Shown: one piece after another, positions 30,158-55,417 of the stretch
How the letters are laid out: each line of letters starts with the position of its first letter
Numbering within the stretch: position 1 is the stretch's first letter
Assembly (NCBI GenBank): GCA_902805545.1
Contig: CADCTD010000070.1
Coordinates: 1-64,000 of the forward strand
DNA length: 64,000 nucleotides
Origin: an uncultured Craurococcus sp.
Lineage (GTDB): Bacteria > Pseudomonadota > Alphaproteobacteria > Acetobacterales > Acetobacteraceae
Reading direction: 5' to 3'
Position numbers and translations under genes: made by a program
The notes under the pieces: model-generated
Told to the model about the DNA's origin: nothing
The model's database searches: none
The model's input: only the letters and a program-made list of their open reading frames with translations

Positions 30158-30167
30158 GGGGCGAGGC

Positions 30168-31771: not shown

Positions 31772-31772
31772 C

Positions 31773-34703: not shown

Positions 34704-34711
34704 GGCCCGGC

Positions 34712-34930: not shown

Positions 34931-34949
34931 CGTCACCGTCTCCACCCCG

Positions 34950-35549: not shown

Positions 35550-35658
35550 TACTTTACCCAGGTTACATCCATGCCACAAGCGGCACCCAGTGCCCGATGG
35601 GCGGGAACCGTCTCGTAACCGGAGCACGTTGCAAGGAGATAGGCCGCTTTCCGGAATG

Positions 35659-36279: not shown

Positions 36280-36791
36280 GGCCCGCGCCGCCCCCCGGGG
36301 CGCTTGCCGAGCGCCTCCGGATCGGCCTCATCGCGGCGGCGCTTGTGGCGGGCGCGCTCGACATGGTGCTCGGCGATGAAGGCATCGACCGTGGGGCGCA
36401 GCCAGTCCGGCAGGGGCAGGCTTTCGAGCAGGTCGGCGCCGCTGTCGGCATAGAGCTGCGCCTCGCCGGCATCGACCGTCACGGCATGGAGGGCAAGGCC
36501 GGGCTCCGCCTCCACCGGCCGCAGCACGACCCAGATGAGCGGCGGGTCGGCGGTGAGGTTGTCGCGGTAATTCGGCGTGTCGGTGGGGGAGAGCACCACC
36601 TCCGCCGCGCCGGCGAGGAAGAGGGTACGGCCGGCCTCCTCGCGCAGCACGGTCCAGGGCGGCAGCGCGGGCGCATCGCGCAGCACCTCGATGGCGCGCC
36701 AGGACCAGTCGGCCCAGCGGCTCGCGGCCGGGCGGCGCTCGGCCAGCACGGCGACGGGGATGCGGATGGTGCCGGGGACTTCGAGCCGCAT
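36276..36791 (-). CDS. DUF3305 protein of the formate dehydrogenase locus
   Basis: A 171-residue soluble protein with the DUF3305 pattern: RIPVAVLAERRPAASRWADW near the N-terminus, YRDNLTADPPLIWVVLRP in the middle, VTVDAGEAQLYADSGADLLE, and a basic C-terminus (ARHKRRRDEAD). No catalytic motif is evident. Stop and start overlap with the DUF3306 gene downstream and share one base with the DUF6352-like gene upstream, so the proteins are made together. Confidence 0.85.
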   Translation of the reverse strand: MRLEVPGTIRIPVAVLAERRPAASRWADWSWRAIEVLRDAPALPPWTVLREEAGRTLFLAGAAEVVLSPTDTPNYRDNLTADPPLIWVVLRPVEAEPGLALHAVTVDAGEAQLYADSGADLLESLPLPDWLRPTVDAFIAEHHVERARHKRRRDEADPEALGKRPGGRRGP

Positions 36792-37822
36792 CAGACGGCC
36801 TCCGCTGCGGTTCTGAGGGGAAGGCCGACGGCCAGGTTCTGCGGCTTCATCCGCACCCGCTGCGCCGCATCCATCGCCAGGGCGAGATAGACCGGCTTGC
36901 CGGATGCCCGTGGCAGAACCCGCGTCGCCTCGGCGAATTCCAGCACGCCGAGCCAGATGATGCGGGCGAGGCGTGCCTGCTTCACCTTCTGGCCGCGCCA
37001 GAGGTCGTTGGCGATGGCGGTCGCCTCGGCATCGAGGCCGACATGCCAGGTCCAGTTGCGGTCGTCGATCACCGGCACCGGGCGGATGGCAACGCGCTCG
37101 CCGATCACATGGCCGATGAAGCGCTCCAGCGCGCGGGCCATGCCGTGCTGGCCGGGGCGGTTCTCGGCGATGTCGAGGGCGAGGTCATGCGCATCGGACC
37201 GGGCCGCGTAGCCGGACGCATTCGCGTCCGAGAGAACCTCGAGCTCCACCTCGCGCGGCGGCGAGCCGGCCTCGGTCAGCAGCCGGCCGAGGCTGCCCAG
37301 ATCGCCGTCGGCGGCGCGGGCATCGAGGAATTCCTCATCGGCCAGCAGCAGCGCACCGGGATGGATGGCGGCGCGCTGCGGGCGGAAGAAGGCCTCTGCG
37401 GCGCGGAGGGCGAAGGCATCCCCCTCGCCCTCCATGGCGGCGCGGGTGACGAGATGGGTCAGCATCTGCAGGAAGATCGGCGGGACGCCGCCGACGCCCC
37501 CGCGGAACAGGGCGAGCCAGGCGCCCTCCAGGGTGGGGGCGGCCTGCACCCGGTCGCGGAAGGCGAGGAAGACCTGCCAGTTCTCCCGCGCATCCGGGTC
37601 GGCAAGGGCCGCGAGGTCTTCAGGCGCGACACGGCGGAGCGGGGCGGCCAGGAGGCCGGTATGCAAGGCGAGCTCGGCCGCGCAGGCCTCCGCCGGCGGC
37701 ACCAGTTCCGGCCGGGCGAGGAAGGCGCGCCAGAGATCCCCCGTCGGCAGGAGCCGGCCGGCCGCGTCGCGGTCGCAGAGGTGATGGCCCGAGGAGAGCC
37801 AGAAATCGCCCGGGCCGATCAT
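36791..37822 (-). CDS. DUF6352-like protein of the formate dehydrogenase locus
   Basis: A 343-residue soluble protein starting MIGPGDFWLSSGHHLCDRD. Conserved-looking parts include RENWQVFLAFRDRVQAAPTL, PIFLQMLTHLVTRAAMEGE, AEAFFRPQRAAIHPGALLLADEE (in part) and NWTWHVGLDAEATAIANDLW. No known enzyme motif. It resembles a family known only from formate dehydrogenase clusters of Proteobacteria (DUF6352). The start at 37820-37822 overlaps the stop of the gene upstream by four bases. Confidence 0.75.
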   Translation of the reverse strand: MIGPGDFWLSSGHHLCDRDAAGRLLPTGDLWRAFLARPELVPPAEACAAELALHTGLLAAPLRRVAPEDLAALADPDARENWQVFLAFRDRVQAAPTLEGAWLALFRGGVGGVPPIFLQMLTHLVTRAAMEGEGDAFALRAAEAFFRPQRAAIHPGALLLADEEFLDARAADGDLGSLGRLLTEAGSPPREVELEVLSDANASGYAARSDAHDLALDIAENRPGQHGMARALERFIGHVIGERVAIRPVPVIDDRNWTWHVGLDAEATAIANDLWRGQKVKQARLARIIWLGVLEFAEATRVLPRASGKPVYLALAMDAAQRVRMKPQNLAVGLPLRTAAEAV

Positions 37823-38343
37823 CGCGCCCCGCTCCCGAGGCTGGTGAGGTCGGGGCGCTCGGGCGCCTCCTCCCCGGCCTCCTCGATGGCGAAGACGGGC
37901 GGCGGGCCCTCCCGCCGGTGCAGGGTGCGGAAGCGCTCGCGCACGGCGCCCTCCTCCACCGTCCGGCTGAGGGCGAGCACCGTCCCGGGCGGATGGGTGC
38001 AGAGCGATTCGGCGAAGGCGATCTCCTCCGCGGCGGCGGCCCGGGCGGCGGCGGCATCGGGGGCGCCGTACTCGGCCTGGATATGGGCGGCGAGGGAGGT
38101 GAGCGCCGCCTCCCGCTCGGCGGGGCTGGCCTCGGCGACCTCCACCAGCGTCGACCAGCCGAAGCTCGCAAGGCCCAGGAAGCCGGCACGGAATTCCTGC
38201 CGCCGCTTGCCGGCAAGCGTGGCCGGGTCCTCGTCCCAGAAGGCGAAGCCGCCGGGCACGGCCCATTCGCCCGGCTCGGCGGCGCGGGTGAAGACGACCT
38301 GGTCCGAGGCGTCGAGGCGGAGGGTGCGCGGCAGCAGGCTCAT
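37819..38343 (-). CDS. DUF6505-like protein of the formate dehydrogenase locus
   Basis: A 174-residue soluble protein starting MSLLPRTLRLDASDQVVFTR. An EWAVPGGFAFWDEDP segment and a GFLGLASFGWSTLVEV segment look like the conserved core of the DUF6505 group, which earlier annotations loosely compared to dioxygenase-related proteins without support. No metal site is recognisable. ATGA overlaps on both sides bind it to the DUF6352-like and biotin-ligase-fold genes. Confidence 0.7.
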   Translation of the reverse strand: MSLLPRTLRLDASDQVVFTRAAEPGEWAVPGGFAFWDEDPATLAGKRRQEFRAGFLGLASFGWSTLVEVAEASPAEREAALTSLAAHIQAEYGAPDAAAARAAAAEEIAFAESLCTHPPGTVLALSRTVEEGAVRERFRTLHRREGPPPVFAIEEAGEEAPERPDLTSLGSGAR

Positions 38344-39014
38344 GCGAGTGGCACCAATTCGCGGCGACCATCGCGCTCCAGCACCAGGGCGCCGCTCTGG
38401 GGGTCGATCCCCCGCCTCAGCCCGGCCTCGGCGCGGCCATCCTCGAGCCGGGCCAGGCAATCCTCCACCAGCCGGCGCGGGCCGCTCGACTGCCAGCGAT
38501 CGAGCCCCACCATCAGGTGCCGCGCCCAGGCGGCGGCGATCTCGGCGCCGGAGGGCTCCTCGAAGCCCTCCTCCTCGAGGCAGGTGCGGTCGGGCGCGTC
38601 GCCGGGCTCGATGCCGGACGGGAGGGCAAGCGCGAGCTCGAAGCCGACGACCAGCCAGTCCGGCACGGCCGATTCGGCAGCGCCCGGCGGCGTGGCCAGC
38701 CGCAAGCCCCCGACCCGGCCGCCGTTCAGCAGGAGCTCGGCCGGCCAGCGCAGGGCGATGACCGCCTCGGGCGGGCCGAGCACCACCAGCGCATCGGCCA
38801 GCGCATTCGCCGCCGCCAGCAGGGCGAGCCTGGCCTCGGCCAGCGGCATGTCCGGCTCCAGCACCACCGCCGCCTCGGCCCGCGCGGCCGAGCGCACCCA
38901 GGCGAGCAGCCCGGCGCCGCGCTCGGGCGCCAGCGCCACCGCCCGCGCCATGGCATCCCCGCCCTCGCGGAGCGCGAGGGGGGCGAAGACGCTCGGCAGG
39001 TCGGGCAGTTCCAT
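38340..39014 (-). CDS. degenerate biotin/lipoate protein ligase-fold protein
   Basis: A 224-residue protein resembling the catalytic core of biotin/lipoate protein ligases with a DUF4444-like C-terminus. The segment ALRWPAELLLNGGRVGGLRL (residues 87-106) aligns with BirA's KWPNDLYL...RKLAGIL, but the substrate-contacting lysine is arginine (R89), the N-D pair is A-E, and the second lysine is R100. The glycine/arginine-rich adenylate loop (GRGRRGR) is absent. It is therefore unlikely to biotinylate; it may bind a cofactor or a partner. The ATG at 39012-39014 heads the accessory gene run. Confidence 0.7.
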   Translation of the reverse strand: MELPDLPSVFAPLALREGGDAMARAVALAPERGAGLLAWVRSAARAEAAVVLEPDMPLAEARLALLAAANALADALVVLGPPEAVIALRWPAELLLNGGRVGGLRLATPPGAAESAVPDWLVVGFELALALPSGIEPGDAPDRTCLEEEGFEEPSGAEIAAAWARHLMVGLDRWQSSGPRRLVEDCLARLEDGRAEAGLRRGIDPQSGALVLERDGRRELVPLA

Positions 39015-39103
39015 CCTTCTCCCTCGCAAGGTCCCGGCTGGCGGCATATATGCCCCCCTTCCCCCGACGCCTAGCGGGGACGAGACCGAGGAAGCCCCCG
39101 AGA

Positions 39104-41107
39104 ATGCCGGATCGCATCGCCCTGGTCTGCAGCTGCGAGGACAGCATGCGCCTCGACGAGCGCAGCCTCGCCCGCGGCTGCGGCGCCGAGCTCCGCACCG
39201 CGGAGCAGCTCTGCCAGGCGCAGCGCGACCGCTTCCTCGCCGCGCTGGCGACCGGGCGGCCGGTGACGGTCGGCTGCACGCAGGAGGCGCCGCTCTTCGC
39301 CGAGCTGGCGGAGGAGGCGGGCGCCGCGCAGCCCCTTGCCTTCGTCAATCTCCGCGAGCAGGCCGGCTGGTCCGGCGAGGGCACGGCGGCCGGGCCGAAG
39401 ATGGCCGGTCTGATCGCTGCCGCCGCCATCCCCCTGCCGGAGACGCCGCTGGTGCCGCTGCGGAGCGAGGGCGTCACGCTCGTGCTCGGCCGCGACGCGG
39501 CGGCGATCGAGGCGGCGCGGCGGCTGGCGGACCGGCTCGACCTCACCGTGCTGCTGACCGGGGCGGAGCCGGTGGCGCCTGCCCCGCGCACCGACTTCCC
39601 CGTCCTGCGCGGGCGGGCGCGGGCGGCGACGGGCTGGCTCGGCGCTTTCGAGGTTGTGGTGGATGGGCATGCGGCGCCCTCGCCCGCCTCCCGCGCTGCC
39701 TATGCCTGGGGGCGGGGACGCGACGGGGCGGTCAGCCGTTGCGACGTCATCCTCGACCTCACCGGCGCCCCGGCCCTCTTCCACGAGACGCGGCAGGGCT
39801 ACCTCCGCGCCGATCCGGCGGATGCGGCGGCGGTGGAGCGCGCCATCGCCGCGGCGCGGGAGCTGGTGGGCGAATTCGATAAGCCGCGCTTCGTGCAGTT
39901 CGAGGCAGGGCTCTGCGCCCATTCCCGCAACCGCCGCACCGGCTGCACCCGCTGCCTCGACCTCTGCCCGACCGGCGCCATCACGCCCGCGAAGGACAGC
40001 GTGGCGATCAGCGCCGAGATCTGCGCCGGCTGCGGCGCCTGCGCCGCCGTCTGCCCGACCGGCGCCGTGACCTATGCGCTGCCGCCGCCGGCGACCACGC
40101 TCGCCCGGCTGCGCGCCCTGCTGCTCGGCCATGCCGAGGCGGGCGGGCGGGACCCGGTCCTGCTGCTGCATGACGGCAGCCATGGCGAGGCGCTGATCGA
40201 CGCCCTCGCCCGGCATGGCGAGGGGCTGCCGGCGCGGGTGCTGCCGCTCCGCCTCAACGAGACGAGCGGGCTCGACCTCGCGACGCTCGCCGCGGGCTTC
40301 GCCTGGGGTGCCGCGGGGGTGCGGGTGCTGCTGCCGGGCCGGCGCGGGCACGGGACGGAGGGGATGTTCCGCAACCTCGGTTATGCCGAGGCGGCGCTCG
40401 ACGGGCTGGGCCTCGCCGCCGCGCTGCCGCGAGCGGCAGCGATCGAGACGGATGATCCCTTCACCCTCGCGGAGGCGCTGGCCCCTGCGATGGCGCTGCG
40501 CACCGGCTGGACGCCGGCAGGCTTCCTGCCGCTCGGCGCGCCGCGGGAGGTGCTGCGCCAGGCGCTTCGCGCGCTGCGCCCGCCAGCGGCGCCGGAGGTG
40601 GTGCCGATGCCGGAGGCCGCGCCCTTCGGCGCCGCCCTGGTCGCCGCCGAGGGCTGCAGCCTCTGCCTCGCCTGCACCATGGTCTGCCCGACCGGCGCCT
40701 TCAGCGCGAATCCGGAGCGGCCGCAGCTCCGCTTCCTCGAGGAGGCCTGCGTGCAGTGCGGTCTCTGCGCCGCGACATGCCCGGAGCGGGTGATCAGCCT
40801 CGCGCCTCGGCTCAATTTCGCCGAGGCCGCCGCGCAGCCGCAGGTGGTGAAGGAGGAGGAGCCCTTCCATTGCACCCGCTGCGCCAAGGCCTTCGGCACG
40901 GCCAGCAGCATCGCGCGGGTCAAGTCCCGCCTGGCTGCCAGCGGGCATTGGATGTTCGCCGACCCGTCCCGCCTCGCCCTGCTTGAGCTCTGCGAGGATT
41001 GCCGGGCGTCTGAGGCGACGCTCGGCGGCGTCGACCCCTATGCCGGCCCGCCGCGCCCTGTGGTCCGCACTACGGAGGACTGGCTGCGGGCAGCGGAGGA
41101 GGAGTAG
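39104..41107 (+). CDS. polyferredoxin-type Fe-S protein of the formate dehydrogenase locus
   Basis: A 667-residue cytosolic-looking protein. Cysteine clusters: C281/C284/C288 with C271 nearby (GCTRCLDLCPTGAI), C307/C310/C313/C317 (ICAGCGACAAVCPTGA), C518/C521/C524/C528 (GCSLCLACTMVCPTGA) and C549/C552/C555/C559 (CVQCGLCAATCPE). Two further CxxC pairs occur near the end (C590/C593, C630/C633). Residues 1-260 and 340-500 lack cysteine clusters and look like nucleotide-binding or flavodoxin-like folds. It may pass electrons to or from the formate dehydrogenase pathway. Divergent from the accessory genes, with a 89-base gap. Confidence 0.82.
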   Translation: MPDRIALVCSCEDSMRLDERSLARGCGAELRTAEQLCQAQRDRFLAALATGRPVTVGCTQEAPLFAELAEEAGAAQPLAFVNLREQAGWSGEGTAAGPKMAGLIAAAAIPLPETPLVPLRSEGVTLVLGRDAAAIEAARRLADRLDLTVLLTGAEPVAPAPRTDFPVLRGRARAATGWLGAFEVVVDGHAAPSPASRAAYAWGRGRDGAVSRCDVILDLTGAPALFHETRQGYLRADPADAAAVERAIAAARELVGEFDKPRFVQFEAGLCAHSRNRRTGCTRCLDLCPTGAITPAKDSVAISAEICAGCGACAAVCPTGAVTYALPPPATTLARLRALLLGHAEAGGRDPVLLLHDGSHGEALIDALARHGEGLPARVLPLRLNETSGLDLATLAAGFAWGAAGVRVLLPGRRGHGTEGMFRNLGYAEAALDGLGLAAALPRAAAIETDDPFTLAEALAPAMALRTGWTPAGFLPLGAPREVLRQALRALRPPAAPEVVPMPEAAPFGAALVAAEGCSLCLACTMVCPTGAFSANPERPQLRFLEEACVQCGLCAATCPERVISLAPRLNFAEAAAQPQVVKEEEPFHCTRCAKAFGTASSIARVKSRLAASGHWMFADPSRLALLELCEDCRASEATLGGVDPYAGPPRPVVRTTEDWLRAAEEE

Positions 41108-44890: not shown

Positions 44891-45436
44891 TTATCCCGTG
44901 CGCTGCGCCTCCAGCAGCGCCAGCATCCCCTCCAGCAGCTGCGCTGGCGTCGGCGGGCAGCCGGGGATGAGCAGGTCGATGGGCAGCGCGGCATCGATCC
45001 CGCCTTCGATCGCATAGCTGCCCTTGAAGACGCCGCCATCCACGGCGCAATCCCCGGCCGCCACCACCCATTTCGGCTCCGGCGTGCATTCGGCCGTGCG
45101 CAGCAGCGCCTCGCGCATGTTGCGCGTCAGCGGGCCGGTGACGAGCAGCACATCGGCATGGCGCGGGCTGGCGACGAAGCGGAGGCCGAAGCGCTCCAGG
45201 TCATGCACCACGTTCTGCATGGCGCTGATCTCGAGCTCGCAGCCATTGCAGGAGCCGGCATCCACCTGCCGGATGGCGAGGCTGCGCCCGAGCCGCGCCT
45301 GCGAGGCCGCCTCCAGCCGGGCGACGAGGGCCTGCACCACCTCCTCCGGCGGCACCGGCGGCGCGTCGGTCAGCGGCGGCGAGACCAGCGCCTGGGCCAG
45401 CCGCGGCCACAACAGGCGGCGCCAGCCCTCCTTCAC
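44891..45436 (-). CDS. hyfI: HyfI/NuoB-like Fe-S subunit of an energy-converting complex
   Basis: A 181-residue small subunit related to hydrogenase-4 HyfI and complex I NuoB. The [4Fe-4S] ligands are kept: C63 and C66 (GSCNGCELEI), C130 (AAGDCAVDGG) and C160 (LIPGCPPTPAQLLEG). Residues ISAMQNVVHDLERFGLRFV and DVLLVTGPLTRNMREAL match the family. GTG start overlapping the large-subunit stop (GTGA). Last gene of the six-gene operon. It should hold the cluster nearest the site that in hydrogenases contains nickel. Confidence 0.88.
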   Translation of the reverse strand: MKEGWRRLLWPRLAQALVSPPLTDAPPVPPEEVVQALVARLEAASQARLGRSLAIRQVDAGSCNGCELEISAMQNVVHDLERFGLRFVASPRHADVLLVTGPLTRNMREALLRTAECTPEPKWVVAAGDCAVDGGVFKGSYAIEGGIDAALPIDLLIPGCPPTPAQLLEGMLALLEAQRTG

Positions 45437-46935
45437 AGGTCGACCCCGCTGTAGGAGGCGTTGATGCTTTTGTTGATCAGCGGGAAGTCGGCCACGATGT
45501 TCCCCTCGATCGCCGCCTCGAGCAGCGGCCAGAGCAGCCAGGACGGATCGCGCGGGAAGACGGCGCGCACCAGCCCGCCATCGTCGAGCGCCACCCAATG
45601 GAGGCAATCGCCGCGAAAGCCCTCGACGAGGCCCAGCCCCTCCCCGCCCCGCTGCGGCAGCGGCAGGGCGAGCTCGCCCGGCGGCAAGGACCCCATCAGC
45701 CCGCGCGCGAGGCGGATCGAATGCTGCATCTCCGCCATGCGGAGGCGGGCCCTGGCATCGACATCGCCTGCGGCCAGCACCGCCGGCTCGGCCGGCGGGT
45801 AGGGTGCATAGCCCGGCCGGTGCCGCGCATCGACGGCGCGGCCGGAGGCGCGGCCCACCACCCCGCCGGCGGCGAAGCGCCGCACGAGCGAGGATGCGAT
45901 CACCCCGGTGCCGACCATGCGGTCGGCGAGGCTGGCGTGCCCGTCATAGACGGAATCGAGCCGCGGCAGCTCCGCCTCCACCGCATCGAGCGCGGCGCCG
46001 ATGGCGGCCACCCCGGCCGGCGTCAGGTCGTCGGTGACGCCGCCGGGCACGACGCGATCCATCATCAACCGGTGGCCGAAGGCGGCTGAGGCGGCCCGCA
46101 GCACCGCCTCGCGCAGCGCGCCGGCGCGGGCATGCAGCCAGGCGAAGGCCGCGTCGTTGCAGAGGGCACCCCAATCGTTCAGGTGGTTGTGCAGCCGCTC
46201 CAGCTCCGCCATCAGCGCCCTGAGGGCCAGCGCCCGGGGCGAGGGCTCGAGGCCGAGCGCCGCCTCCACCCCTTGGGCGAAGGCCCAGCTGTGCGCGACC
46301 GTTGAGTCGCCCGAGAGCCGGGCGGCGAAACGCGCCGCGACCCGCGCCGGCTTGCCGAGCATCAGCCCGATATGCCCCTTGTGCAGGTAGCCGAGCCGCG
46401 CCTCCAGCCGCACCACCGCCTCACCCTGGACATGGAAGCGGAAATGCCCCGGCTCAATCACCCCGGCATGGACCGGCCCGACCGGGATGTGGTGGATGCC
46501 CTCGCCCTCGACGGACAAAAAGACGGGCTGCGGCGGCGGCATCGCATTCGGCGCCGGCCGGGCCGCCAGCGGGCCGAGCACCGGCCAGCGCCCATGGTCG
46601 AGCCAGGGCCGCTGGTCGACCCCGCCCTCGGCGACCAGGCCCCAGAGGTCGCGGATCATCCGCTCGAAAAGCACCGCGCCCGGCCGCACCGGGGACAGGG
46701 CGCCATAGCGCCCCTCCGGCACGGCGCAGGAGGCGATGAGGATCGCTTCCTCCACCATCAACGCCGCATGCACCTGCGCCGGATCGGCCCAGAGGCCGAG
46801 CAGCGCAACGCCATCCGCCTGGCCGATCTCCGCGACCAGCGCCGCCCATTGCCCGCGGTCGAGCAGGTAGCGCTGATGCGGCCGGCAGCCCTGCTCCTGC
46901 CCGTGGCGGACCAGCCGCAGCAATGCCTCGCTCAT
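45433..46935 (-). CDS. hyfG: HyfG/NuoCD-like large subunit lacking nickel ligands
   Basis: A 500-residue fusion of a NuoC-like N-terminal domain (about 1-120) and a NuoD/HycE-like catalytic domain (about 130-500; start of the latter HHIPVGPVHAGVIEPGHFRF). Hydrogenase large subunits bind Ni-Fe with two Cys in RxCGxC and two in DPCxxC. Here these read RLSGDS (S208, S211) and NASYSG (S494, G497), so all four cysteines are gone while surrounding sequence is conserved. The protein therefore cannot be a NiFe hydrogenase and fits the Ehr group. Coupled to its neighbours by 4-base overlaps. Confidence 0.9.
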   Translation of the reverse strand: MSEALLRLVRHGQEQGCRPHQRYLLDRGQWAALVAEIGQADGVALLGLWADPAQVHAALMVEEAILIASCAVPEGRYGALSPVRPGAVLFERMIRDLWGLVAEGGVDQRPWLDHGRWPVLGPLAARPAPNAMPPPQPVFLSVEGEGIHHIPVGPVHAGVIEPGHFRFHVQGEAVVRLEARLGYLHKGHIGLMLGKPARVAARFAARLSGDSTVAHSWAFAQGVEAALGLEPSPRALALRALMAELERLHNHLNDWGALCNDAAFAWLHARAGALREAVLRAASAAFGHRLMMDRVVPGGVTDDLTPAGVAAIGAALDAVEAELPRLDSVYDGHASLADRMVGTGVIASSLVRRFAAGGVVGRASGRAVDARHRPGYAPYPPAEPAVLAAGDVDARARLRMAEMQHSIRLARGLMGSLPPGELALPLPQRGGEGLGLVEGFRGDCLHWVALDDGGLVRAVFPRDPSWLLWPLLEAAIEGNIVADFPLINKSINASYSGVDL

Positions 46936-48359
46936 CCCGCCACCCCCGCCGCCTCGCCGAGCAGCGCCCGCAGCGGCCCCGGCAGCGCCACGCCGAGCAG
47001 CAGCGCCAGCACGAGATGCGCCCAGATCGGCCCGAGGCTCGTCCAGTCCGCCGGACCGGCGGCGGGCCCGGTTGGCGGGTCGCCGAGGCAGAGCGCCTGG
47101 AGCACCCGTACCTTCGCCGCCACCGCCGCCAGGAGGCCGAGGCCGAGCGGGAGGATCGCCCAGGGGTGCCGCGCCGCCGCCTCCGTCACCAGCAGGTATT
47201 CGCTGGCGAAGAGGGCGAAGGGCGGCAGCCCCGCCACCGCCGCGATGCCGATGGCGAGCGCCCAGCCGAGCGCGGGCGCGGCGATGCAGAGCCCGCCGAG
47301 ATCGGCGATCCGCTGCGAGCCGCGCAGCCGCACCGCCGCGCCGATGCCGAAGAAGACCGCCGACTTCGCCAGCGAATGCCCGAGCATGTGCAGCAGCCCC
47401 GCCAGGTTCCCCGCCGCGCCGCCGAGGCCGAAGCCGGTGGCGGCGAGGCCCATGTGCAGGATGCTGCTCCAGGCGAAGAAGCGCCGCGCATCCCGCCGCC
47501 GCCAGAGCGCGAAGGCGGCGACGAGGACGGAGGCGAGGCCGAAGGCGAGCAGCAGCGCCCCCGGCGGCACGGTTTCCGGATGCGCGCCGACGATCGCCTT
47601 CGCCCGCAGCACGGCCAGCATCGCCGCGTTCAGCAGCAGGCCGGAGAGCACGGCGGAGATGGCGACCGGCCCCTCGGCCTCGGCATCCGGCAGCCAGGAA
47701 TGCAGCGGGACCAGGCCGGCCTTGGTGCCGTAACCGACCAGGAGGAAGACGAAGGCGAGGTTCAGCACGCCCGGGTCGCAGCGCGCCGCGACCGCGCGCA
47801 GCGCCGCCCAGGACAGCCCCTCCCCCGCGCCGATCACCGGCTGCGCCGCGAGATGCAGGATGATGGTGCCGAGCAGGGCGAGCGCGATGCCGACGCCGCA
47901 GAGGATGAAGAACTTCCACGCCGCCTCGATCGCGGCCGGCGTGCCGTGCAGCCCGACCATCAGCACGCTGGCAAGCGTCGCCACCTCGATCGCCACCCAC
48001 ATCACGCCGAGATTGTCGGCAAGCAGCGCGAGGGCCTGCGCGCCCATGAAGAGCTGGAAGGCGACATGGAAGGCACGCAGGCGGCGCGGGTCCAGCCCCT
48101 CGGCCGCGATGGCGCCGAGCGAATAGATGGCCGTCGTCAGCCCGATGAGGAAGGCGAGCAGCAGCAGCGGCAGGTTCAGCGCATCGAGCCTTGTCCAGCC
48201 CGTCACCCCCTGCGGCGCCGCGAGCAGGGCGAGGGCCAGCAGGAAGGAAAGCGCAGAGATGCCGCAGTTCGTGAGGGCCGCGACCCGCTCCCGCGGCAGG
48301 AAGGCGAGCACCGCCGCCCCCGCCCAGGGCAGCAGGACGAGCAGCCAGGGGAGCGGCAT
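46932..48359 (-). CDS. hyfF: HyfF-like antiporter-type membrane subunit
   Basis: A 475-residue polytopic protein of the NuoL/M/N-MrpD family with about 14 helices. Ion-channel residues are retained: Glu in MWVAIEVATLAS, Lys in GYGTKAGLVPLHSWLPDA, and His/Lys in LHMLGHSLAKSAVFF. It should form one proton (or sodium) pathway of the complex. Start ATG at 48359; ATGA overlap with the HyfE-like gene and with the large subunit gene. Confidence 0.9.
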   Translation of the reverse strand: MPLPWLLVLLPWAGAAVLAFLPRERVAALTNCGISALSFLLALALLAAPQGVTGWTRLDALNLPLLLLAFLIGLTTAIYSLGAIAAEGLDPRRLRAFHVAFQLFMGAQALALLADNLGVMWVAIEVATLASVLMVGLHGTPAAIEAAWKFFILCGVGIALALLGTIILHLAAQPVIGAGEGLSWAALRAVAARCDPGVLNLAFVFLLVGYGTKAGLVPLHSWLPDAEAEGPVAISAVLSGLLLNAAMLAVLRAKAIVGAHPETVPPGALLLAFGLASVLVAAFALWRRRDARRFFAWSSILHMGLAATGFGLGGAAGNLAGLLHMLGHSLAKSAVFFGIGAAVRLRGSQRIADLGGLCIAAPALGWALAIGIAAVAGLPPFALFASEYLLVTEAAARHPWAILPLGLGLLAAVAAKVRVLQALCLGDPPTGPAAGPADWTSLGPIWAHLVLALLLGVALPGPLRALLGEAAGVAG

Positions 48360-49027
48360 CACTCGCCCTCCCCGCGATGCGGGTGCAGCAGGGCGATGTC
48401 GAGGCTGTCGAGCCGTTCCCGCATCTGGAAGACGAAGACGCCGGCGACGACCAGCACCAGCATCACCAGCGCGGCGGTCGAGAGCTCGACCACCAGCGGC
48501 ATGCCGGCGACGCCGATGGCGGCCAGCACCAGCCCGTTCTCGAGGCTCATCAGCCCGACGACCTGGAGGATGGCGTTGCGCCGGGTGATCATCATCAGCA
48601 TGCCGAGCAGCACGACGGAGAGGGCGATGGCCAGGTCCTCCCGCGCCAGGGCCTGCGCGCCGGTGGTGATCGGCAGCGCCACGGCGACGGCGAGCGCCAC
48701 CAGAGCCACCCCGGCGATGAGGCTCGGCCCGATGCCGAGCGCCGCATCCACCCCCCGCGCGAGGGCGAGCCGCCGGATCATCCAGTGCAGGGCGAGCGGG
48801 ATGAAGCCCGCCTTCGCCACCGCCGCGACCAACGCGGTGAGGTAGAGCTGCGGCGCCCCCTGCACCCACCCTTGCCAGGCCGCCGCCAGCGCCAGCACGG
48901 CCCCCTGCGCCGCCAGCACGCTCACCACCGCCGCGACCCGCCGCTGGTAGAGCAGCATGAAGGAGAGCAGCAGCATCCCGCCGCCGAGCAGGTGCGCCAC
49001 GTCATAGGGGAGCTGGCCGAAGCCCAT
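48359..49027 (-). CDS. hyfE: HyfE-like membrane subunit (NuoK-related)
   Basis: A 222-residue membrane protein with about six to seven helices, as in hydrogenase-4 component E, whose C-terminal half resembles NuoK. RRNAILQVVGLMSLENGLVL contains the conserved buried Glu of NuoK-type subunits (MSLEN). It ends with a charged cytosolic tail (HPHRGEGE). Start at 49027 shares one base with the stop of the HyfC-like gene upstream. Confidence 0.88.
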   Translation of the reverse strand: MGFGQLPYDVAHLLGGGMLLLSFMLLYQRRVAAVVSVLAAQGAVLALAAAWQGWVQGAPQLYLTALVAAVAKAGFIPLALHWMIRRLALARGVDAALGIGPSLIAGVALVALAVAVALPITTGAQALAREDLAIALSVVLLGMLMMITRRNAILQVVGLMSLENGLVLAAIGVAGMPLVVELSTAALVMLVLVVAGVFVFQMRERLDSLDIALLHPHRGEGE

Positions 49028-49986
49028 CAGGCGAACCCCGTCGAGACGAAGAGCAGCGCCGCCGCCAGCAGGGCCAGCAGCAGCGCCGCGCCGAGGAATT
49101 CCGGCACGCGGAAGACCCGCATCTTGGCGATCGCACCCTCGAAGACGGCGAGCGCCAGGCAGAGTCCGCCCATCTTCGCGCCCCAGGCCAGGAGGCCGGT
49201 CAGCCAGGCGAATGGCCCGCTCCCCGCCGGCGCCGTGCCGAAGGGGAGGAAGATCGCGGCGACGAGCGCCAGCCAGAGGGTCAGCTTGAGTGCCGCCTGC
49301 AGCTCCCACAGGGCGAGGTGGCGGCCGGAGGCTTCCAGCAGCATCGCCTCATGCACCATGGTGAGCTCGAGATGCGTCGCCGGGTTGTCGACGGGGATGC
49401 GGGCATTCTCCGCCAGCGCCACCGCCACCATCGCCACCGCGGCCAGGCCGAGCGAGACCCGGAGGCCGAGCGCCCCATCGCGGAAGACGGCGCCGATCTG
49501 GTCGAGATTGGTGCTGCCGGCCAGGATGGCGAAGCTCAGCGCCGAGACCAGCAGCGCCGGCTCGGCGAAGACGGCGAAGCTCATCTCCCGCGCCGCGCCG
49601 AGCCCGCCGAAGGCGGTGCCCGCATCCATGCCGGCCAGCGCCAGGGCCATCCGCGCCAGCGCCAGGAGCCCCGCGACCAGCACCAGGTCGGCGGCCGGGG
49701 CGAAGGCCATCCCATGCGCGAACCCCGGCACCAGCGCCGCGGCGACCAGCGTGGCGGCGAGCGCCAGGTAGGGCGCCGCCTCGCTGACCAGCGAGGCATT
49801 CTCGGCCAGCAGCGGGCGCTTGGCGCACAGCTTGGCGAGGTCGCGGAAGGGCTGCAGCGGGGAGGCGCCGCGCCGCCCCTGCATCCGCGCCTTCAGCCAG
49901 CGGATGACGCCGACCACCAGCGGCGCCGCCGCCAGCATCAGCGTGACATGCAGCGCCTGGGTGAGGACCGCGCCGAGGACGAGCAC
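49027..49986 (-). CDS. hyfC: HyfC/NuoH-like membrane subunit
   Basis: A 319-residue subunit of the NuoH/HycD family, which anchors the hydrophilic arm and connects it to the membrane domain. The conserved loops are seen at RWLKARMQGRRGASPLQPFR and AENARIPVDNPATHLELTMV followed by HEAMLLEASGRHLALWE. The GTG start at 49984-49986 lies directly after a TAG; there is no strong ribosome site. The 126-base gap to the HyfB-like gene contains GC-rich inverted repeats but no gene. Confidence 0.88.
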   Translation of the reverse strand: MLVLGAVLTQALHVTLMLAAAPLVVGVIRWLKARMQGRRGASPLQPFRDLAKLCAKRPLLAENASLVSEAAPYLALAATLVAAALVPGFAHGMAFAPAADLVLVAGLLALARMALALAGMDAGTAFGGLGAAREMSFAVFAEPALLVSALSFAILAGSTNLDQIGAVFRDGALGLRVSLGLAAVAMVAVALAENARIPVDNPATHLELTMVHEAMLLEASGRHLALWELQAALKLTLWLALVAAIFLPFGTAPAGSGPFAWLTGLLAWGAKMGGLCLALAVFEGAIAKMRVFRVPEFLGAALLLALLAAALLFVSTGFA

Positions 49987-50112
49987 CTAGGGCCTGCCCG
50001 CACAGGGGCGCGGCGCGTCCCGGCGGGCGCTGTCCGTCATGGCGGCGCCCGCGTCCCTGCGATGCCGGGCAGCCTCTCGCCGATACATCTTCCCTCCCGT
50101 CACGGACACGCC

Positions 50113-52119
50113 CTAGCGCCTCTCCAACCAGGCCAGCAGCGCCAGCAGGCCGACCAGCGTGGCGAAGCCGAGCGAGAGCGAGCCGCGCAGGGTGAGGCCG
50201 CGCAGCCGCTCCACCTGCCCGGCGATCGCATCCCCCAGCCGCGCCGCCGGCACCGGCAGGGCGAGGGCGGCACGGTCCTCGAAGCCGGAGGCCAGCCGCG
50301 CCGGGCGAGGATCGGCGGGGGGCGGCATCGTCACCGCCTCGCGCGCCGCGAGCAGGGTGCCGCCCAGCATCCGCCGCAGCGGCTGGGCCATGCCGGCGGC
50401 GGAGGGCTGGCTCAGCGGATCGCCGAAGACGAATTCCGGCGGCGGGTCGATGAAGCCGCCATTCCAGGCCGGGCCGCGCTCCGCCGTCGCCGGCGAGCGC
50501 CGCCGCACCGCCAGCCAGAGCAGGGCCAGGGCAAGGCCGAGCAGCAGGATGACGACCAGCGGCGCATAGGCCGAATGCCCCTCCCCCGCGCCGATCGCCA
50601 ACCCGACCACGGGCGGCATCGCCGCCGGGCCGACCAGCACGCGGATGCCGGGCGCGGCGAGGGCGAGCGCCAGCCCGGGGAAGAGTCCGATCAGCAGGGT
50701 CAGCACCGCCGGCACCGCCATCCCGGCCAGTTCGAAGCGATTGGCCTCGCGGGCCCCCGCCCCGCGCGGGCTGCGCGGCCGGCCGAGGAAGGCGAGGCCG
50801 AAGAGGCGCAGCATCGCCGCCGCCGCCAGCGCCGCGGCCATGGCGGCGAGGGCCAGCGCCGCGGCCGCCGCGACCTGCAGCCCGATCTCGCCCAGCCGCC
50901 AGCCGCCGAGCAGCGCCTGCAGCAGCAGCCATTCGCTGGCGAAGCCGGAGAGCGGCGGCAGCGCAGCCGCGGCGCCGATCCCGACCAGCGCGGCCACCGC
51001 CGTCCGCGGCATGGCGTGGATCAGCCCGCCCAACCGGTCCAGCCGCCGGCTGCCCGCCGCGTGCTGCACCGCGCCGGCAACGAGGAAGAGCAGCGTCTTG
51101 AACAGCCCATGCGCCATGGCGTGCAGCAGCGCCGCCCCGGCGGCCAGCGCCGCCATCGGCCCGAGATCCGCCGCCCGGAACAGCAGGGCGAGGCCGAGCG
51201 CCATCGTCACCAGCCCGACATTCTCGATCGTCGAGCAGGCGAGCGCCGCCTTGGCATCCTCCTCCAGATTGGCCCGGAGCGCCCCGAGCAAGGCGGAGGC
51301 CGCGCCCGCCGCCAGCAGCGGCACCCCCCACCAGCCCGGCTGCAGCGGCCCGCAAAGGTCGAGCAGCAGCCGCGCCAGGACATAGAGCGCGACCTTGGTC
51401 ATCGCCCCCGACATCAGCGCCGAGACCGGCGAGGGCGCCGCCGGATGGGCGAGCGGCAGCCAGAGGTGCAGCGGCACCAGGCCTGCCTTCGCCCCGGCGC
51501 CCACCAGGCCAAGGGCCAGCACGGCGATGGCCCGCCAGCCCTCCGGCGGCGCCGCGCGGATGGCGGCGAAATCGAGCGCTCCGAGCAGGCCGAAGGCCGG
51601 CACCAGGCAAATCCCCGCAAGCGCCGCGAAGACGAGATAGAGCCGAGCCGCCTCGCGGTTGCCCGCCTCCCGATGATCGAGTGCGACCAGCACCCAGGAG
51701 GCGAGCGACATCAGCTCGAAGCCGAGGATCAGGGTAAAGCCGTCCGCCGCCAGCACGGCGAGCACCATCCCGCCGAGAAAGAGCGGCCAGGCGACCAGCC
51801 CCCGTGCCGGGCCGCCGAGGGCGAAAAGCGAGGCCGCCATCCCGGTGAGCCCCAGCAGCAGCAGGAACCAGGCCGAAAGTCCGTCGAGCGCGAGGCGCAT
51901 CCCGCCCCAGGCCGGGCCGAAGGGCAACGCCAGCACCCCCTCCGGGAGGCCGAAGGCAAGCGCGCCACCCGCCAGCAGCGCGATGCCGGCCGAGACCAGT
52001 GCGCTGCCCCCCAGCACCACCGGCCCGGCCCAATGCCCGGCCCAACGCCCGGTCGGTACCAGGGCGGCCAGGGCCAGCAGGCCGAGAAGGGCAAGGCCGA
52101 GGGCGATCGCCGTCAGCAC
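50113..52119 (-). CDS. hyfB: HyfB-like antiporter-type membrane subunit
   Basis: A 668-residue NuoL-type protein with about 16 helices, first gene of the operon. Channel residues: Glu in LILGFELMSLASWVLVAL, Lys in VGAGAKAGLVPLHLWLPLAH, Lys in SALMSGAMTKVALYVLAR, and His/Lys in HAMAHGLFKTLLFL. A soluble C-terminal stretch (about 540-640) precedes the final helix, as in HyfB. GTG start at 52117-52119. Divergent from the TRAP transporter operon; the 191-base gap between them should hold both promoters. Confidence 0.9.
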   Translation of the reverse strand: MLTAIALGLALLGLLALAALVPTGRWAGHWAGPVVLGGSALVSAGIALLAGGALAFGLPEGVLALPFGPAWGGMRLALDGLSAWFLLLLGLTGMAASLFALGGPARGLVAWPLFLGGMVLAVLAADGFTLILGFELMSLASWVLVALDHREAGNREAARLYLVFAALAGICLVPAFGLLGALDFAAIRAAPPEGWRAIAVLALGLVGAGAKAGLVPLHLWLPLAHPAAPSPVSALMSGAMTKVALYVLARLLLDLCGPLQPGWWGVPLLAAGAASALLGALRANLEEDAKAALACSTIENVGLVTMALGLALLFRAADLGPMAALAAGAALLHAMAHGLFKTLLFLVAGAVQHAAGSRRLDRLGGLIHAMPRTAVAALVGIGAAAALPPLSGFASEWLLLQALLGGWRLGEIGLQVAAAAALALAAMAAALAAAAMLRLFGLAFLGRPRSPRGAGAREANRFELAGMAVPAVLTLLIGLFPGLALALAAPGIRVLVGPAAMPPVVGLAIGAGEGHSAYAPLVVILLLGLALALLWLAVRRRSPATAERGPAWNGGFIDPPPEFVFGDPLSQPSAAGMAQPLRRMLGGTLLAAREAVTMPPPADPRPARLASGFEDRAALALPVPAARLGDAIAGQVERLRGLTLRGSLSLGFATLVGLLALLAWLERR

Positions 52120-52310: not shown

Positions 52311-53411
52311 ATGGATCGTCGAGGGCTGTTCGCCGGCGCCGCCGCTGCAGGCACTCTGGCCTTGGCTACGCCCGCCATCGCCCAGGCCATGCCGGAGGTC
52401 CGCTGGCGCTGTGCTTCCTCCTTTCCCAAATCGCTCGACACGATCTACGGGGCGGGCGAGCACGTGGCGAAGCGCGTCGCTGCGCTGACCGACAACAAGT
52501 TCCAGATCCGGGTCTTCGCCGCGGGCGAGCTGGTGCCCGGCCTCGCGGTGGCCGATGCGGTGCAGACGGGCACCGTGGATTGCGCCCATACCGCCAGCTA
52601 CTACTTCGTCGGCAAGGACCCGACCTTCGCCTTCGACGGCGCGGTGCCCTTCGGCCTCAACACGCGCCAGACCAATGCCTGGCTTCAGGCCGGCGGCGGG
52701 CGCGAGGTGCTGCGGGAGTTCTTCGCGGGCTTCAACATGGTCTCGATCCCGGCGGGGAACACCGGCGCCCAGATGGGCGGCTGGTTCCGCAAGGAGATCA
52801 AGACCGTCCAGGACCTTTCGGGCCTCAAGTTCCGCATCGGCGGCTTCGCCGGCAACGTGCTGCAGAAGCTCGGCGTCGTGCCGCAGCAGATCGCCGGGGG
52901 CGACATCTACCCGGCGCTCGAGAAGGGCACGATCGATGCCGCGGAATGGGTCGGCCCCTATGACGACGAGAAGCTCGGCTTCAACCGCGTCGCCCCCTAC
53001 TACTACTACCCGGGCTGGTGGGAGGGCTCGCTCAACCTCTCCTTCTACATCGCCCGCGCCAAGTACGAGGAGTTGCCACAGCTCTACAAGGATGCGCTGG
53101 AGAGCGCCTGCCGCGACAGCACCATCGAGACCATGGCGAAATACGACGTGCAGAACCCGCAGGCGCTCCGCCGCCTGATCGGCGCGGGCACCCAGCTTCG
53201 TGCCTTCCCGCGCGAGGTGATGCAGGCCTGCTACAAGGCAGCCTTCGAGCTTTACGACGAGACCGCGGCCAGGAACGCCAATTTCAAGAAGGTCTACGAT
53301 CACTGGCGGGCCTTCCGCGACACGCAGTACCAGTGGTTCCGCGTCGCCGAGAGCGGCTTCGACAATTTCGGCTACTTCATGCAGGCGCAGGAACAGCAGC
53401 AGCGCCGCTGA
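52311..53411 (+). CDS. dctP: TRAP transporter substrate-binding protein (TakP-like)
   Basis: A 366-residue periplasmic solute-binding protein. The N-terminus MDRRGLFAGAAAAGTLALAT is a twin-arginine-like signal with cleavage near AIAQA. The binding domain has GLKFRIGGFAGN, the conserved arginine that salt-bridges a carboxylate ligand, and EWVGPYDDEKLGF, resembling the 2-oxoacid-binding TakP branch. The ligand is therefore probably an organic or keto acid (inference). The small and large permease genes follow. Confidence 0.9.
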   Translation: MDRRGLFAGAAAAGTLALATPAIAQAMPEVRWRCASSFPKSLDTIYGAGEHVAKRVAALTDNKFQIRVFAAGELVPGLAVADAVQTGTVDCAHTASYYFVGKDPTFAFDGAVPFGLNTRQTNAWLQAGGGREVLREFFAGFNMVSIPAGNTGAQMGGWFRKEIKTVQDLSGLKFRIGGFAGNVLQKLGVVPQQIAGGDIYPALEKGTIDAAEWVGPYDDEKLGFNRVAPYYYYPGWWEGSLNLSFYIARAKYEELPQLYKDALESACRDSTIETMAKYDVQNPQALRRLIGAGTQLRAFPREVMQACYKAAFELYDETAARNANFKKVYDHWRAFRDTQYQWFRVAESGFDNFGYFMQAQEQQQRR

Positions 53412-53433
53412 GGCGCCCGGGAGGCTGGTGTAG

Positions 53434-53982
53434 ATGGGTCCACTGATCGCCTTCAGCCGGGGCGTCGACCGGCTGAACACCGCCGTCAGCAAGCTGGCCG
53501 ACTGGGCGGTGCTGCTCGCCTGCCTCATCAGCGCGGGAAATGCCTTCGTGCGCTACGGCGTCTCCTACAGCTCCAATGCCTGGCTGGAGGTGCAGTGGTA
53601 CCTGTTCGGCGCCATCGTGCTGCTCGGCGCCTCCTACACGCTCTTCCGCAACGAGCATGTCCGCGTGGACCTGCTCTACGGCAACGTCTCCGAGCGGACC
53701 CGGCTCTGGATCGACGTCTTCGGCTTCATCTTCTTCATGCTGCCGGCCATCATCATGCTCGCCTGGATGACCTGGCCCTTCTTCCTCGACAGCTGGGTCC
53801 GCGACGAGGGCAGCCCGAATGCCGGAGGCCTCATCCGCTGGCCGGTGAAGCTCCTGCTGCCGATCGGCTTCTTCCTGCTCACCCTGCAGGGCCTTTCCGA
53901 ACTCATCAAGCGCATCGCCCTGCTGCGCGGCATCCGCCCGGCGGCCGAGGTGGTGGTCGAGTACCACCGTCCCGACCAGTGA
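53434..53982 (+). CDS. dctQ: TRAP transporter small permease
   Basis: A 182-residue four-helix membrane protein of the DctQ family: LLACLISAGNAFVRYGV, WLEVQWYLFGAIVLLGASYT (the E-xQ-Wxf motif), RNEHVRVDLLYGNVSERTRLW and LPIGFFLLTLQGLSELIKR. It bridges the binding protein and the large permease. Located 22 bases after dctP and 19 before dctM. Confidence 0.93.
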   Translation: MGPLIAFSRGVDRLNTAVSKLADWAVLLACLISAGNAFVRYGVSYSSNAWLEVQWYLFGAIVLLGASYTLFRNEHVRVDLLYGNVSERTRLWIDVFGFIFFMLPAIIMLAWMTWPFFLDSWVRDEGSPNAGGLIRWPVKLLLPIGFFLLTLQGLSELIKRIALLRGIRPAAEVVVEYHRPDQ

Positions 53983-54001
53983 ACCAGGACCGACAGATCC
54001 C

Positions 54002-55417
54002 ATGACCATCGACATGGACGTGATGGCCCCGCTGATGTTCGGCGGGCTGGTCGTCTTCCTGCTGATCGGCTTCCCCGTCGCGTTCAGCCTCGCCGCGGTC
54101 GGACTGTTCTTCGGCTTCGTGTCGATCGAACTCGGCTTCTTCACCACCGCCTATCTGGGGAACCTGCCGCTCCGCGTATTCGGGATCGTGCAGAACGACC
54201 TGCTGCTCTCGATCCCCTTCTTCACCCTGATGGGCGCCATCCTCGAGCGATGCGGCCTGGCGGAGGACCTGCTGGAGGGCACCGGCCAGCTCTTCGGCAA
54301 GATTCCGGGCGGCCTCGCCTACGCCGTCATCCTGGTCGGCGCCGTGCTCGGCGCGATCACCGGCACGGTCGCCGCCTCGGTCATCGCCATGGGCATGATC
54401 TCCCTGCCGATCATGATGCGCTACGGCTACGACATGCGGATCGCCACCGGGGTGATCGCGGCCTCCGGCACCATCACCCAGGTGATCCCGCCGAGCCTCG
54501 TGCTGATCGTCCTCGGCGACCAGCTTGGCAAGTCGGTCGGCGACATGTATGCGGGCGCGATCGGGCCGTCGATCCTGCAGATCCTGCTCTTCATCCTCTT
54601 CATCGCGGGCGTCAGCATCTTCGCCCCGCACAAGGTGCCCGCGCTGCCGGACGAGGCGCTGACCCAGCGCGGCTGGCCGCTGATCTGGCGCGTGGCGAAG
54701 GGCATGGTGCCCTCCATCGTGCTGATTTTCCTCGTCCTCGGCACGATCTTCCTCGGCCTCGCCACGCCGACCGAGGCGGGCGCCATGGGCGCGGTCGGTG
54801 CGATCGGCCTCGCCTGGATCAATGGCCGCTTCACCTGGTCGCTGCTGCGCCAGGCGATGGAGAACACCATGCGGATCACCGCCATGGTGATCTTCATCCT
54901 GATCGGCGCAACGGTGTTCAGCCTGGTCTTCCAGGGCGTCGACGGCTCGCTCTGGATCGAGCACATGCTGATGCAGCTGCCCGGCGGGGCGACCGGCTTC
55001 CTCATCGCGGTCAACATCTTCATCTTCTTCCTGGCCTTCTTCCTCGACTTCTTCGAGATCGCCTTCATCGTCGTCCCGCTGCTGGCGCCCGTCGCGGCCA
55101 AGCTCGGCATCGATCTCGTCTGGTTCGGCGTGCTGATCTGCGTGAACATGCAGACCAGCTTCATGCACCCGCCCTTCGGCTTCGCACTCTTCTACCTGCG
55201 CGGCATCGCGCCGAAGGAAGTCCGCAGCAGCGACATCTACTGGGGCGCCATCCCGTGGGTCGTGCTGCAGCTGGTGCTCGTCGCCATCGTCATCTTCTGG
55301 CCGCAGAGCGTGACCTACTGGATCGACAGGGGCACGGGCGTCGACCCGAGCACGGTGCGGATCGAGGTGCCGCTGCCCGACCTCCCCGAGGACGACGCGC
55401 CGCCGATCTTCCGGTAG
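54002..55417 (+). CDS. dctM: TRAP transporter large permease
   Basis: A 471-residue, about 12-13-helix secondary transporter subunit of the DctM family, driving uptake with a Na+ or H+ gradient. Typical pieces are LLIGFPVAFSLAAVGLFFGF, LLSIPFFTLMGAILER, the repeat containing SVIAMGMISLPIMM, and SGTITQVIPPSLVLIVLGDQ. A longer central loop (about residues 205-225) is normal for this subgroup. A clear intrinsic terminator follows at 55425. Confidence 0.95.
   Translation: MTIDMDVMAPLMFGGLVVFLLIGFPVAFSLAAVGLFFGFVSIELGFFTTAYLGNLPLRVFGIVQNDLLLSIPFFTLMGAILERCGLAEDLLEGTGQLFGKIPGGLAYAVILVGAVLGAITGTVAASVIAMGMISLPIMMRYGYDMRIATGVIAASGTITQVIPPSLVLIVLGDQLGKSVGDMYAGAIGPSILQILLFILFIAGVSIFAPHKVPALPDEALTQRGWPLIWRVAKGMVPSIVLIFLVLGTIFLGLATPTEAGAMGAVGAIGLAWINGRFTWSLLRQAMENTMRITAMVIFILIGATVFSLVFQGVDGSLWIEHMLMQLPGGATGFLIAVNIFIFFLAFFLDFFEIAFIVVPLLAPVAAKLGIDLVWFGVLICVNMQTSFMHPPFGFALFYLRGIAPKEVRSSDIYWGAIPWVVLQLVLVAIVIFWPQSVTYWIDRGTGVDPSTVRIEVPLPDLPEDDAPPIFR

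Follow-up and report, generated by a model that had tools for sequence, protein, structure and literature searches.

The closest described system to the locus reported here is the Hyq complex of Azorhizobium caulinodans, whose hyqRBCEFGI operon is presented, in passages of Ng (2009; PMC2650096), as a NifA-controlled hydrogenase, the 'endo-hydrogenase'. Passages of a later paper (Sprecher 2012; PMC3357923) report that the HyqG proteins of eight genera, among them that of Rhizobium leguminosarum bv. viciae, miss both CxxC motifs, and call a Ni-Fe site in them 'uncertain, if not unlikely'; three other HyqG cysteines (258, 491 and 497 in A. caulinodans) are described there as completely conserved. 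We analysed a window of 64,000 nucleotides, the whole stretch at positions 1 to 64,000 of contig CADCTD010000070.1 (assembly GCA_902805545.1), from an uncultured Craurococcus sp. of the family Acetobacteraceae. Its minus strand carries six head-to-tail genes, hyqBCEFGI, at 44891-52119. We propose, with a probability of about one half, that they encode a Hyq complex in which redox chemistry, with a single Fe-S cluster, drives an ion pump, rather than a [NiFe] hydrogenase; that nickel is missing from Hyq is in itself close to certain. The Hyq family and its missing HyqG cysteines are already published, and the present locus adds a member. New with respect to the published Hyq passages are the arguments from whole genomes against a nickel enzyme, the breakdown of the alternative cysteine set, the replacement of the quinone ligands and the pocket marked by D210, K489 and N492.

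The gene order B-C-E-F-G-I is shared by Rhizobium johnstonii 3841, Bradyrhizobium and Methylovirgula, and all six open reading frames are as an initial annotation had given them when it recognised a hydrogenase-4-like complex here. HyqB (50113..52119, 668 aa) and HyqF (46932..48359, 475 aa) are antiporter-type subunits, HyfB/NuoL-like and HyfF/NuoM-like respectively; they match NCBIfam hydrogenase 4 subunit B (E 2.5e-161, under the equivalog cut-off) and subunit F (2.3e-153, under the cut-off). HyqC (49027..49986, 319 aa) is a NuoH/HyfC-like membrane subunit (Pfam NADHdh, 1.9e-34), and HyqE (48359..49027, 222 aa) a HyfE-like one, with no Pfam match and an NCBIfam hydrogenase 4 membrane subunit match under the cut-off (6.1e-17). 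HyqG (45433..46935, 500 aa) is a fused NuoC/NuoD-like 'large subunit', and HyqI (44891..45436, 181 aa) a NuoB-like small subunit with C63, C66, C130 and C160 (Pfam Oxidored_q6, 1e-31). Most NCBIfam scores of the Hyq proteins lie below the curated cut-offs. The GTG start of hyqI overlaps the hyqG stop; hyqB and hyqC are separated by 126 bases, and the remaining four junctions are overlaps of 1 to 4 bases. Third-position G+C of the hyq genes is 0.91 to 0.97, in a window of 72.6% G+C. Pfam and NCBIfam found no HyfA, HyfD, HyfH or NADH module among the six genes. The source genome, a draft of 4.5 Mb that is 97% complete, also encodes an ordinary complex I NuoD, 28% identical, with an LDY motif and a GEIDR end.

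The rebuilt pocket of HyqG

HyqG aligns over most of its length with Escherichia coli HycE (7z0s; profile E 3.6e-96), its best match in the Protein Data Bank (PDB). In this alignment RVCGIC of HycE becomes RLSGDS in HyqG, and DPCYSC becomes NASYSG. The first of these segments lies in residues 206-215 (RLSGDSTVAH, 46291..46320, minus strand), which replace R-x-CGxC and contain S208, G209, D210 and S211; the second lies in residues 483-500 (DFPLINKSINASYSGVDL, 45436..45489, minus strand), which replace DPCxxC and form the C-terminal end of HyqG. The residues at the four nickel-cysteine positions are S208, S211, S494 and G497, numbered as in the initial annotation, and alignment with HycE, HyfG-type and NuoD proteins, the check that it had proposed, placed no intact cysteine pairs at the nickel site. 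We then relied on a control alignment of 13 proteins (eight NiFe large subunits and five NuoD) with 50 family and 17 distant Hyq proteins, window excluded. All four nickel places are cysteines in 8/8 NiFe controls, and read D, S or A, V, E in 5/5 NuoD. At three of the places the 67 Hyq relatives have Ser, or else Ala, Thr, Met or Asn, and at the fourth they have Gly; none has Cys at 211, 494 or 497, and two, one family and one distant, have it at 208. Three further positions set Hyq apart from both control groups, namely 210 (D in 67/67, against I or V), 489 (K in 63/67, against G or A) and 492 (N in 67/67, against D). Chance or misalignment as the source of the missing cysteines was ruled out by the HycE, profile and control alignments; the frequency of the core form, 51 of 100 genomes drawn from the family, likewise puts the pattern well outside chance.

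The quinone site of complex I is replaced as well. His38 and Tyr87 of Thermus thermophilus Nqo4, which we take to be the complex I quinone ligands, are present as H and Y in all five NuoD controls, and their columns hold I160 (I in 66/67) and G209 (G in 67/67) in HyqG. Because the nickel-cysteine, His38 and Tyr87 columns are all replaced, alignment gives the HyqG pocket the character of neither of the two known sites, that of nickel and the usual one for quinone. A C-terminal maturation tail is missing from HyqG as well: it ends in SGVDL, about where mature hydrogenases are cleaved, and six HycE/HyfG-type controls continue from DPCYSCTDR for about 32 further residues. A structural model had also been recommended as a check. 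The AlphaFold2 model of HyqG (mean pLDDT 78) served for fold comparison solely, since it falls below 50 at residues 136-186 and 478-500; its nearest solved fold is E. coli HycE (TM 0.83 by query), followed by complex I.

The altered pocket is conserved. Our family set consisted of 51 HyqG homologues, window included, from 100 genomes drawn from the family, each matching both motifs as a regular expression; matches scoring less than about 115 bits were left out, most of them NuoD-like and one of them a fragment of 150 residues in G020. The core Hyq form is therefore counted in 51/100 family genomes, and 22 further ones hold motif-failing copies alone (20 divergent, one of an SGVG type in G058, and one cut by a contig end in G069 whose first motif is of the core type). 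Invariant in 51/51 are R206, G209, D210, D254, D483, P485, N488, S490, N492, G497 and D499. Positions 208, 211, 494 and 497 read S49/A1/C1, S37/A10/T4, S43/A7/T1 and G51, with Cys in 1/51 at 208 and in 0/51 at the other three. Among named relatives (the best 80 of 581 confirmed, 78 of which reach the C-terminus), Cys occurs at 208 in 2/80, at 211 in 0/80 and at 494 or 497 in 0/78; D210 and I160 are found in 80/80, and K489, N492 and G497 in 78/78. These relatives span Rhizobium, Bradyrhizobium, Mesorhizobium, Azospirillum, Rhodopseudomonas, Rhodoplanes, Roseomonas, Siccirubricoccus and metagenome-assembled genomes of other groups, and the signature, with some Ser replaced by Ala, extends to Cupriavidus, Burkholderia, a methanotroph and Rhodococcus. 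Since motif residues such as D210 and N492 are invariant in the family and in the named relatives, the pocket is under constraint, without decay. A pseudogene or decaying hydrogenase was ruled out by the open frames together with the constrained pocket. A cysteine at 208 alone was seen in four core HyqG (L097, L128, L197 and L228, with RICGDS, RTCGDS, RACGDS and RSCGDS), none of which has a second cysteine at 211; those with a C-terminus to compare have none at 494 or 497 either.

The three other HyqG cysteines fare differently. R. johnstonii 3841, presumably a member of biovar viciae, has the same gene order after a small helix-turn-helix (HTH) gene, and its 504-aa HyqG has cysteines at 259, 491 and 497 among others. 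The window keeps C259 alone; the other two are I487 and A493. Cys stands at 487 and 493 in 35/51 and 34/51 family homologues and at 259 in 37/50. Being absent from many relatives, the three-cysteine set is, on these alignments, a poor criterion for Hyq membership. The HyqI of R. johnstonii has cysteines at 55, 58, 122 and 152 among others, and PMC3357923 gives 55, 58, 112 and 152; position 112 may be a misprint.

The rest of the complex retains what a redox-driven pump would need. In a search of 42 loci, with 40 to 42 matches per subunit, C63, C66, C130 and C160 of HyqI are Cys in 41/41 relatives, and HyqI accordingly retains the predicted ligands of one [4Fe-4S] cluster of the N2 type. HyqB (E135, K211, H218, K242, H333, H337, K341, E396), HyqC (E134, E142, E193, E207, E213, E218) and HyqF (E125, K213, H220, H328, K332, E387) retain charged residues of the predicted ion path, each conserved in at least 95% of the matches. 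The cluster cysteines and the Glu/Lys/His channel residues of both antiporter-type subunits had been noted initially, and both observations hold across the relatives.

A tree was built from 74 large subunits. Its 59 Hyq rows, 37 of the core form and 22 divergent, are set apart from the NiFe, NuoD and SGVG-type proteins by a branch supported at 100/99; the tree is unrooted, with several long rows and an unsettled bootstrap, and does not tell nickel loss from never having had nickel. The divergent paralogues fall among the family's own Hyq. Partial or complete loss of the SGD and NKS signature marks these fast-evolving copies (L060-L069, L072-L074, L076-L079, L083, L091, L092, L096, L101, L104, L106, L108, L110, L111 and L116), and 20/100 genomes have only such copies. 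Of 29 divergent loci examined, 24 had a detectable small subunit, and 23 of these have its full set of Fe-S cysteines. Since paralogues losing the pocket motif keep these cysteines, the Fe-S cluster seems more essential than the pocket. A fourth large-subunit type without nickel cysteines (L070, L071, L113, L115) reads R-x-SG or SA, then VG or AA, with ASFGLTxAG or similar; the contig that carries the G058 copy (L071) also has a DUF3306 gene, about 9 kb away.

Genomic evidence on nickel and hydrogen

We then asked whether the carriers of Hyq could mature a nickel enzyme. HypD was not found in the source genome, in whose 97% complete assembly a gap is not fully excludable; HypF was not found over the cut-off there, the best match being a 30.8-bit fragment against a cut-off of 466. 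No NiFe large subunit was found in it with PF00374 at E 1e-25, a threshold that missed large subunits with all their cysteines elsewhere and was dropped for absence counts. NifH over the cut-off was likewise not found in the source genome (best family match 224 bits against 394), and a nitrogenase-linked role of Hyq in the source organism was rejected for this reason. The NifH-family matches, 224 and 205 bits on contigs C94 and C23, are BchL/BchX-like, which raises the possibility of an aerobic anoxygenic phototroph. A link of Hyq to phototrophy was rejected, as matches of the BchL/BchX kind occur in 20/51 Hyq genomes and 17/49 others (p 0.68).

Across the family, HypD over the cut-off is missing in 38/51 Hyq genomes, 35 of which are at least 90% complete, and NifH over the cut-off is present in 3/100 genomes, two of them Hyq-bearing (2/51). 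Recycling of the H2 of N2 fixation therefore cannot be the common role of Hyq in the family. By gene content, most Hyq carriers in the family seem unable to build the Ni-Fe cofactor, and equally unable to produce H2 through N2 fixation. Genomes like the source genome, with Hyq and without HypD, full HypF or NifH found, separate the hydrogenase view from the non-hydrogenase view. The matter reaches beyond this locus: Hyq scores above 540 bits in 57/299 genomes drawn from the phylum, source genome included, and database records name its parts hydrogenase 4, nickel-dependent hydrogenase or NADH-quinone oxidoreductase. If Hyq is not a hydrogenase, many genomes have been wrongly credited with hydrogen metabolism, and a common relative of complex I has a substrate yet to be named.

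Proposed mechanism, neighbours and competing readings

We propose that Hyq would be a six-subunit pump cut down from the plan of complex I and group-4 hydrogenases, in which HyqG keeps the hydrogenase/NuoD fold and its pocket is rebuilt with D210, K489, N492 and Ser or Gly at the nickel positions of hydrogenases. Because the operon has no HyfA/HyfH or NADH module, a soluble low-potential carrier, most likely ferredoxin or flavodoxin, would feed the HyqI cluster with electrons; as no donor gene was found near the operon, a shared soluble carrier would be the simplest source. Reduction would then take place in the pocket, probably of a quinone that enters by way of HyqC and is bound otherwise than in complex I, and the energy released would expel H+ or Na+ through HyqC, HyqB and HyqF. 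A reverse mode, spending the ion gradient to make low-potential electrons, may also be conceived. The ferredoxin-to-quinone direction is tentative, one guess among several to which we give somewhat less than even odds.

Several points weigh against this proposal. The quinone acceptor is a guess, because the complex I quinone ligands are replaced by I160 and G209, and the AlphaFold2 model is poor precisely at the pocket. No neighbour gene in 44 core and 98 further loci names an electron donor. HypD is commoner with Hyq (13/51) than without (3/49; p 0.013). Ten of the 16 HypD genomes have another hydrogenase able to explain it, as a CGxC plus DPCxxC subunit within 8 kb of hypD (G057, G062, G064, G084), a strong PF00374 match (G065, G076, G093, G099) or a group 4 large subunit with its cysteines (G029, G094); in the stretches read of the other six (G014, G019, G031, G051, G091, G098) no other hydrogenase was found, and all of these except G019 carry core Hyq. 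Finally, according to passages of PMC3357923, deletion of the hyq operon in A. caulinodans took H2 exchange from 12 to 175 pmol/10^9 cells/min at 20 uM O2, hupSL backgrounds below 1 uM O2 gave 61,000 with hyq and 14,000 without, and 56,600 was still reached by a nifK hupSL strain that had kept hyq. The H2 of that strain therefore did not come from nitrogenase. The sequence data offer no explanation of these phenotypes. The absence of the ligands, the tail, HypD and HypF supports the initial statement that the complex does no hydrogen chemistry, but the published mutants do show altered H2 exchange, a point that the initial annotation did not mention.

Neighbouring genes were counted around the 44 core family loci and the 98 further ones, excluding reading frames that run across hyq genes in a different frame or on the opposite strand (two such clusters were checked); flanks of 3 kb were available upstream in 22 and downstream in 72 of the 98, so a distant partner could escape. 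Each of the six hyq genes is found again at about 37 to 44 of the core loci, some contigs being cut, and the next true neighbour is a TRAP transporter (DctQ/DctM) in 10/44. In the window, a TRAP transporter (DctP, DctQ, DctM; 52362-55417) is divergent from hyqB. Around the 98 further loci, the widely recurring neighbour is an HTH gene alone (30 loci, mostly upstream on the same strand), and a gene read as an ABC-transporter ATPase follows hyq in 10. The HTH gene is hyqR-like and, at 30/98, not universal. Searched by tblastn with two hyqR-type HTH proteins, the window gave no match in the vicinity of hyqB; its best one (E 0.17) lies at 26.9 kb. Upstream of hyqB, a sigma-54 promoter was seen in 1/115 stretches against 4/115 of the coding control, and where hyqR precedes hyqB this is the wrong place for it. 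On a plasmid of Methylovirgula sp. HY1, hyq adjoins F0F1 ATPase genes and fae; the HyqG of this strain is 90% identical to that of Afipia sp. 1NLS2 (L035 and L120), which suggests recent transfer.

Among the alternatives, the one that survives best is a substrate-specific oxidoreductase-pump whose pocket (D210, K489, N492, Ser/Gly) would bind a small molecule other than H2 or quinone; we consider it unlikely, though deserving of attention. MBS, a ferredoxin-driven sulfane sulfur reductase, is the precedent, and 6u8y_L, named NADH dehydrogenase subunit D in the PDB and presumably MbsL, is a detectable homologue of HyqG. The pocket is as constrained as a catalytic site and differs from the NiFe, NuoD and SGVG types at the same columns. 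However, no conserved neighbouring enzyme or transporter hints at a substrate, the TRAP transporter being the best candidate, and the MBS precedent is drawn from general knowledge and not from a comparison of pockets.

Hyq may instead be a genuine H2:quinone oxidoreductase, the published view for A. caulinodans, that dispenses with the usual four cysteines and handles H2 at another site of HyqG, but this is more doubtful. The hyq-deletion phenotypes, which persist without nifK, and the NifA control speak for it (passages of PMC3357923 and PMC2650096), as do the three reportedly conserved cysteines (PMC3357923) and Rhodocista centenaria, said in a passage of Ng (2010; PMC2930871) to have hyq without hup/hyp and to recycle H2, data not shown. 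Yet two of these cysteines are I487 and A493 here and all three are variable in the family, NifH accompanies Hyq in just two of its 51 genomes, and the published deletion spans hyqR to hyqI (PMC2650096). As the regulator gene was also lost, the H2 phenotype of the mutants may be indirect.

A pairing of Hyq with the formate dehydrogenase (FDH) encoded 10 kb away, giving a formate-driven ion pump by analogy with formate hydrogenlyase, appears improbable. The region at 28406-41107 encodes MoeA, MobB, a cytochrome b, a ferredoxin-type beta subunit, and FdhA-like and TorD-like proteins, together with DUF3306, DUF3305, DUF6352 and DUF6505 proteins, a lipoate-ligase-like gene and a divergent 4Fe-4S protein. 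A tRNA-Trp, a true gene or a false call, is predicted at 35071-35149 within the TorD-like frame (34950-35474), on the same strand. FDH-Ehr complexes (Ehr, energy-converting-hydrogenase-related) have been proposed in Margulisbacteria, Ehr is reported to rise on formate in Geobacter, and DUF3306 leans to Hyq genomes (16/51 against 7/49, p 0.057). DUF3306 is nevertheless missing in 35/51 Hyq genomes, in G088 500 kb of a single contig separate hyqG from DUF3306, and the FDH of the window has its own cytochrome b subunit. Around the 44 core loci, the genes lying between FDH and hyq in the window were not found as conserved neighbours, and the FDH operon itself is not one; it was rejected as the partner of Hyq.

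We give marginally less credit to the idea that the nickel-free, cysteine-free site of HyqG (S208-G-D210-S211, K489, N492, S494) handles H2 or another small molecule, or that Hyq is a reversible low-potential-electron pump; H2 handled there would make the A. caulinodans phenotypes hydrogenase chemistry not seen before. Least probable of all is a degenerate complex left as an ion channel or antiporter alone, without redox role. Loss of the pocket signature in the fast-evolving paralogues speaks for it; against it, the small-subunit cysteines are kept in nearly all of those in which a small subunit was detected, and in 41/41 core Hyq relatives.

Comparison with known systems

The proposed redox-driven pump is best placed against four systems. 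With the Hyq of A. caulinodans, compared by its published description while the sequences compared were the R. johnstonii 3841, Bradyrhizobium, Azospirillum and Rhodopseudomonas loci, it shares six structural genes in the same order, a HyqG of similar length (504 aa there, 500 here) without CxxC pairs, and NuoB-type cysteines in HyqI. It differs in that hyqR was not found in the window, in that searches of the genome gave neither HypD, nor full HypF, nor a NifH above the cut-off, and in that two of the three reportedly conserved HyqG cysteines are missing. With the [NiFe] hydrogenases-3 and -4 (Hyc/Hyf, group 4) it shares the HyqG fold and homologous subunits; unlike them, it lacks the nickel cysteines, a HycI-type tail and, in the operon, HyfA, HyfD and HyfH, and HypD or full HypF was not found with it.

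The identity as an Ehr complex, put forward in the initial annotation, stands in the wide sense. In a passage of PMC6349859, Ehr are group 4 hydrogenase relatives without the residues coordinating Ni and Fe; Hyq is such a group-4 relative without Ni-Fe ligands and with Mrp-like subunits, and its precise name is Hyq (hyqBCEFGI). With Ehr in the narrow sense, that of Geobacter and of comammox Nitrospira, whose Ehr is said to lie near group 4f, Hyq was compared by published description. With respiratory complex I (the NuoB/C/D/H/J/L/M core), finally, Hyq shares homologous subunits, the ligands of the N2 cluster and the charged residues of the ion path, and it differs in having an operon without an NADH module and isoleucine and glycine in the columns of His38 and Tyr87.

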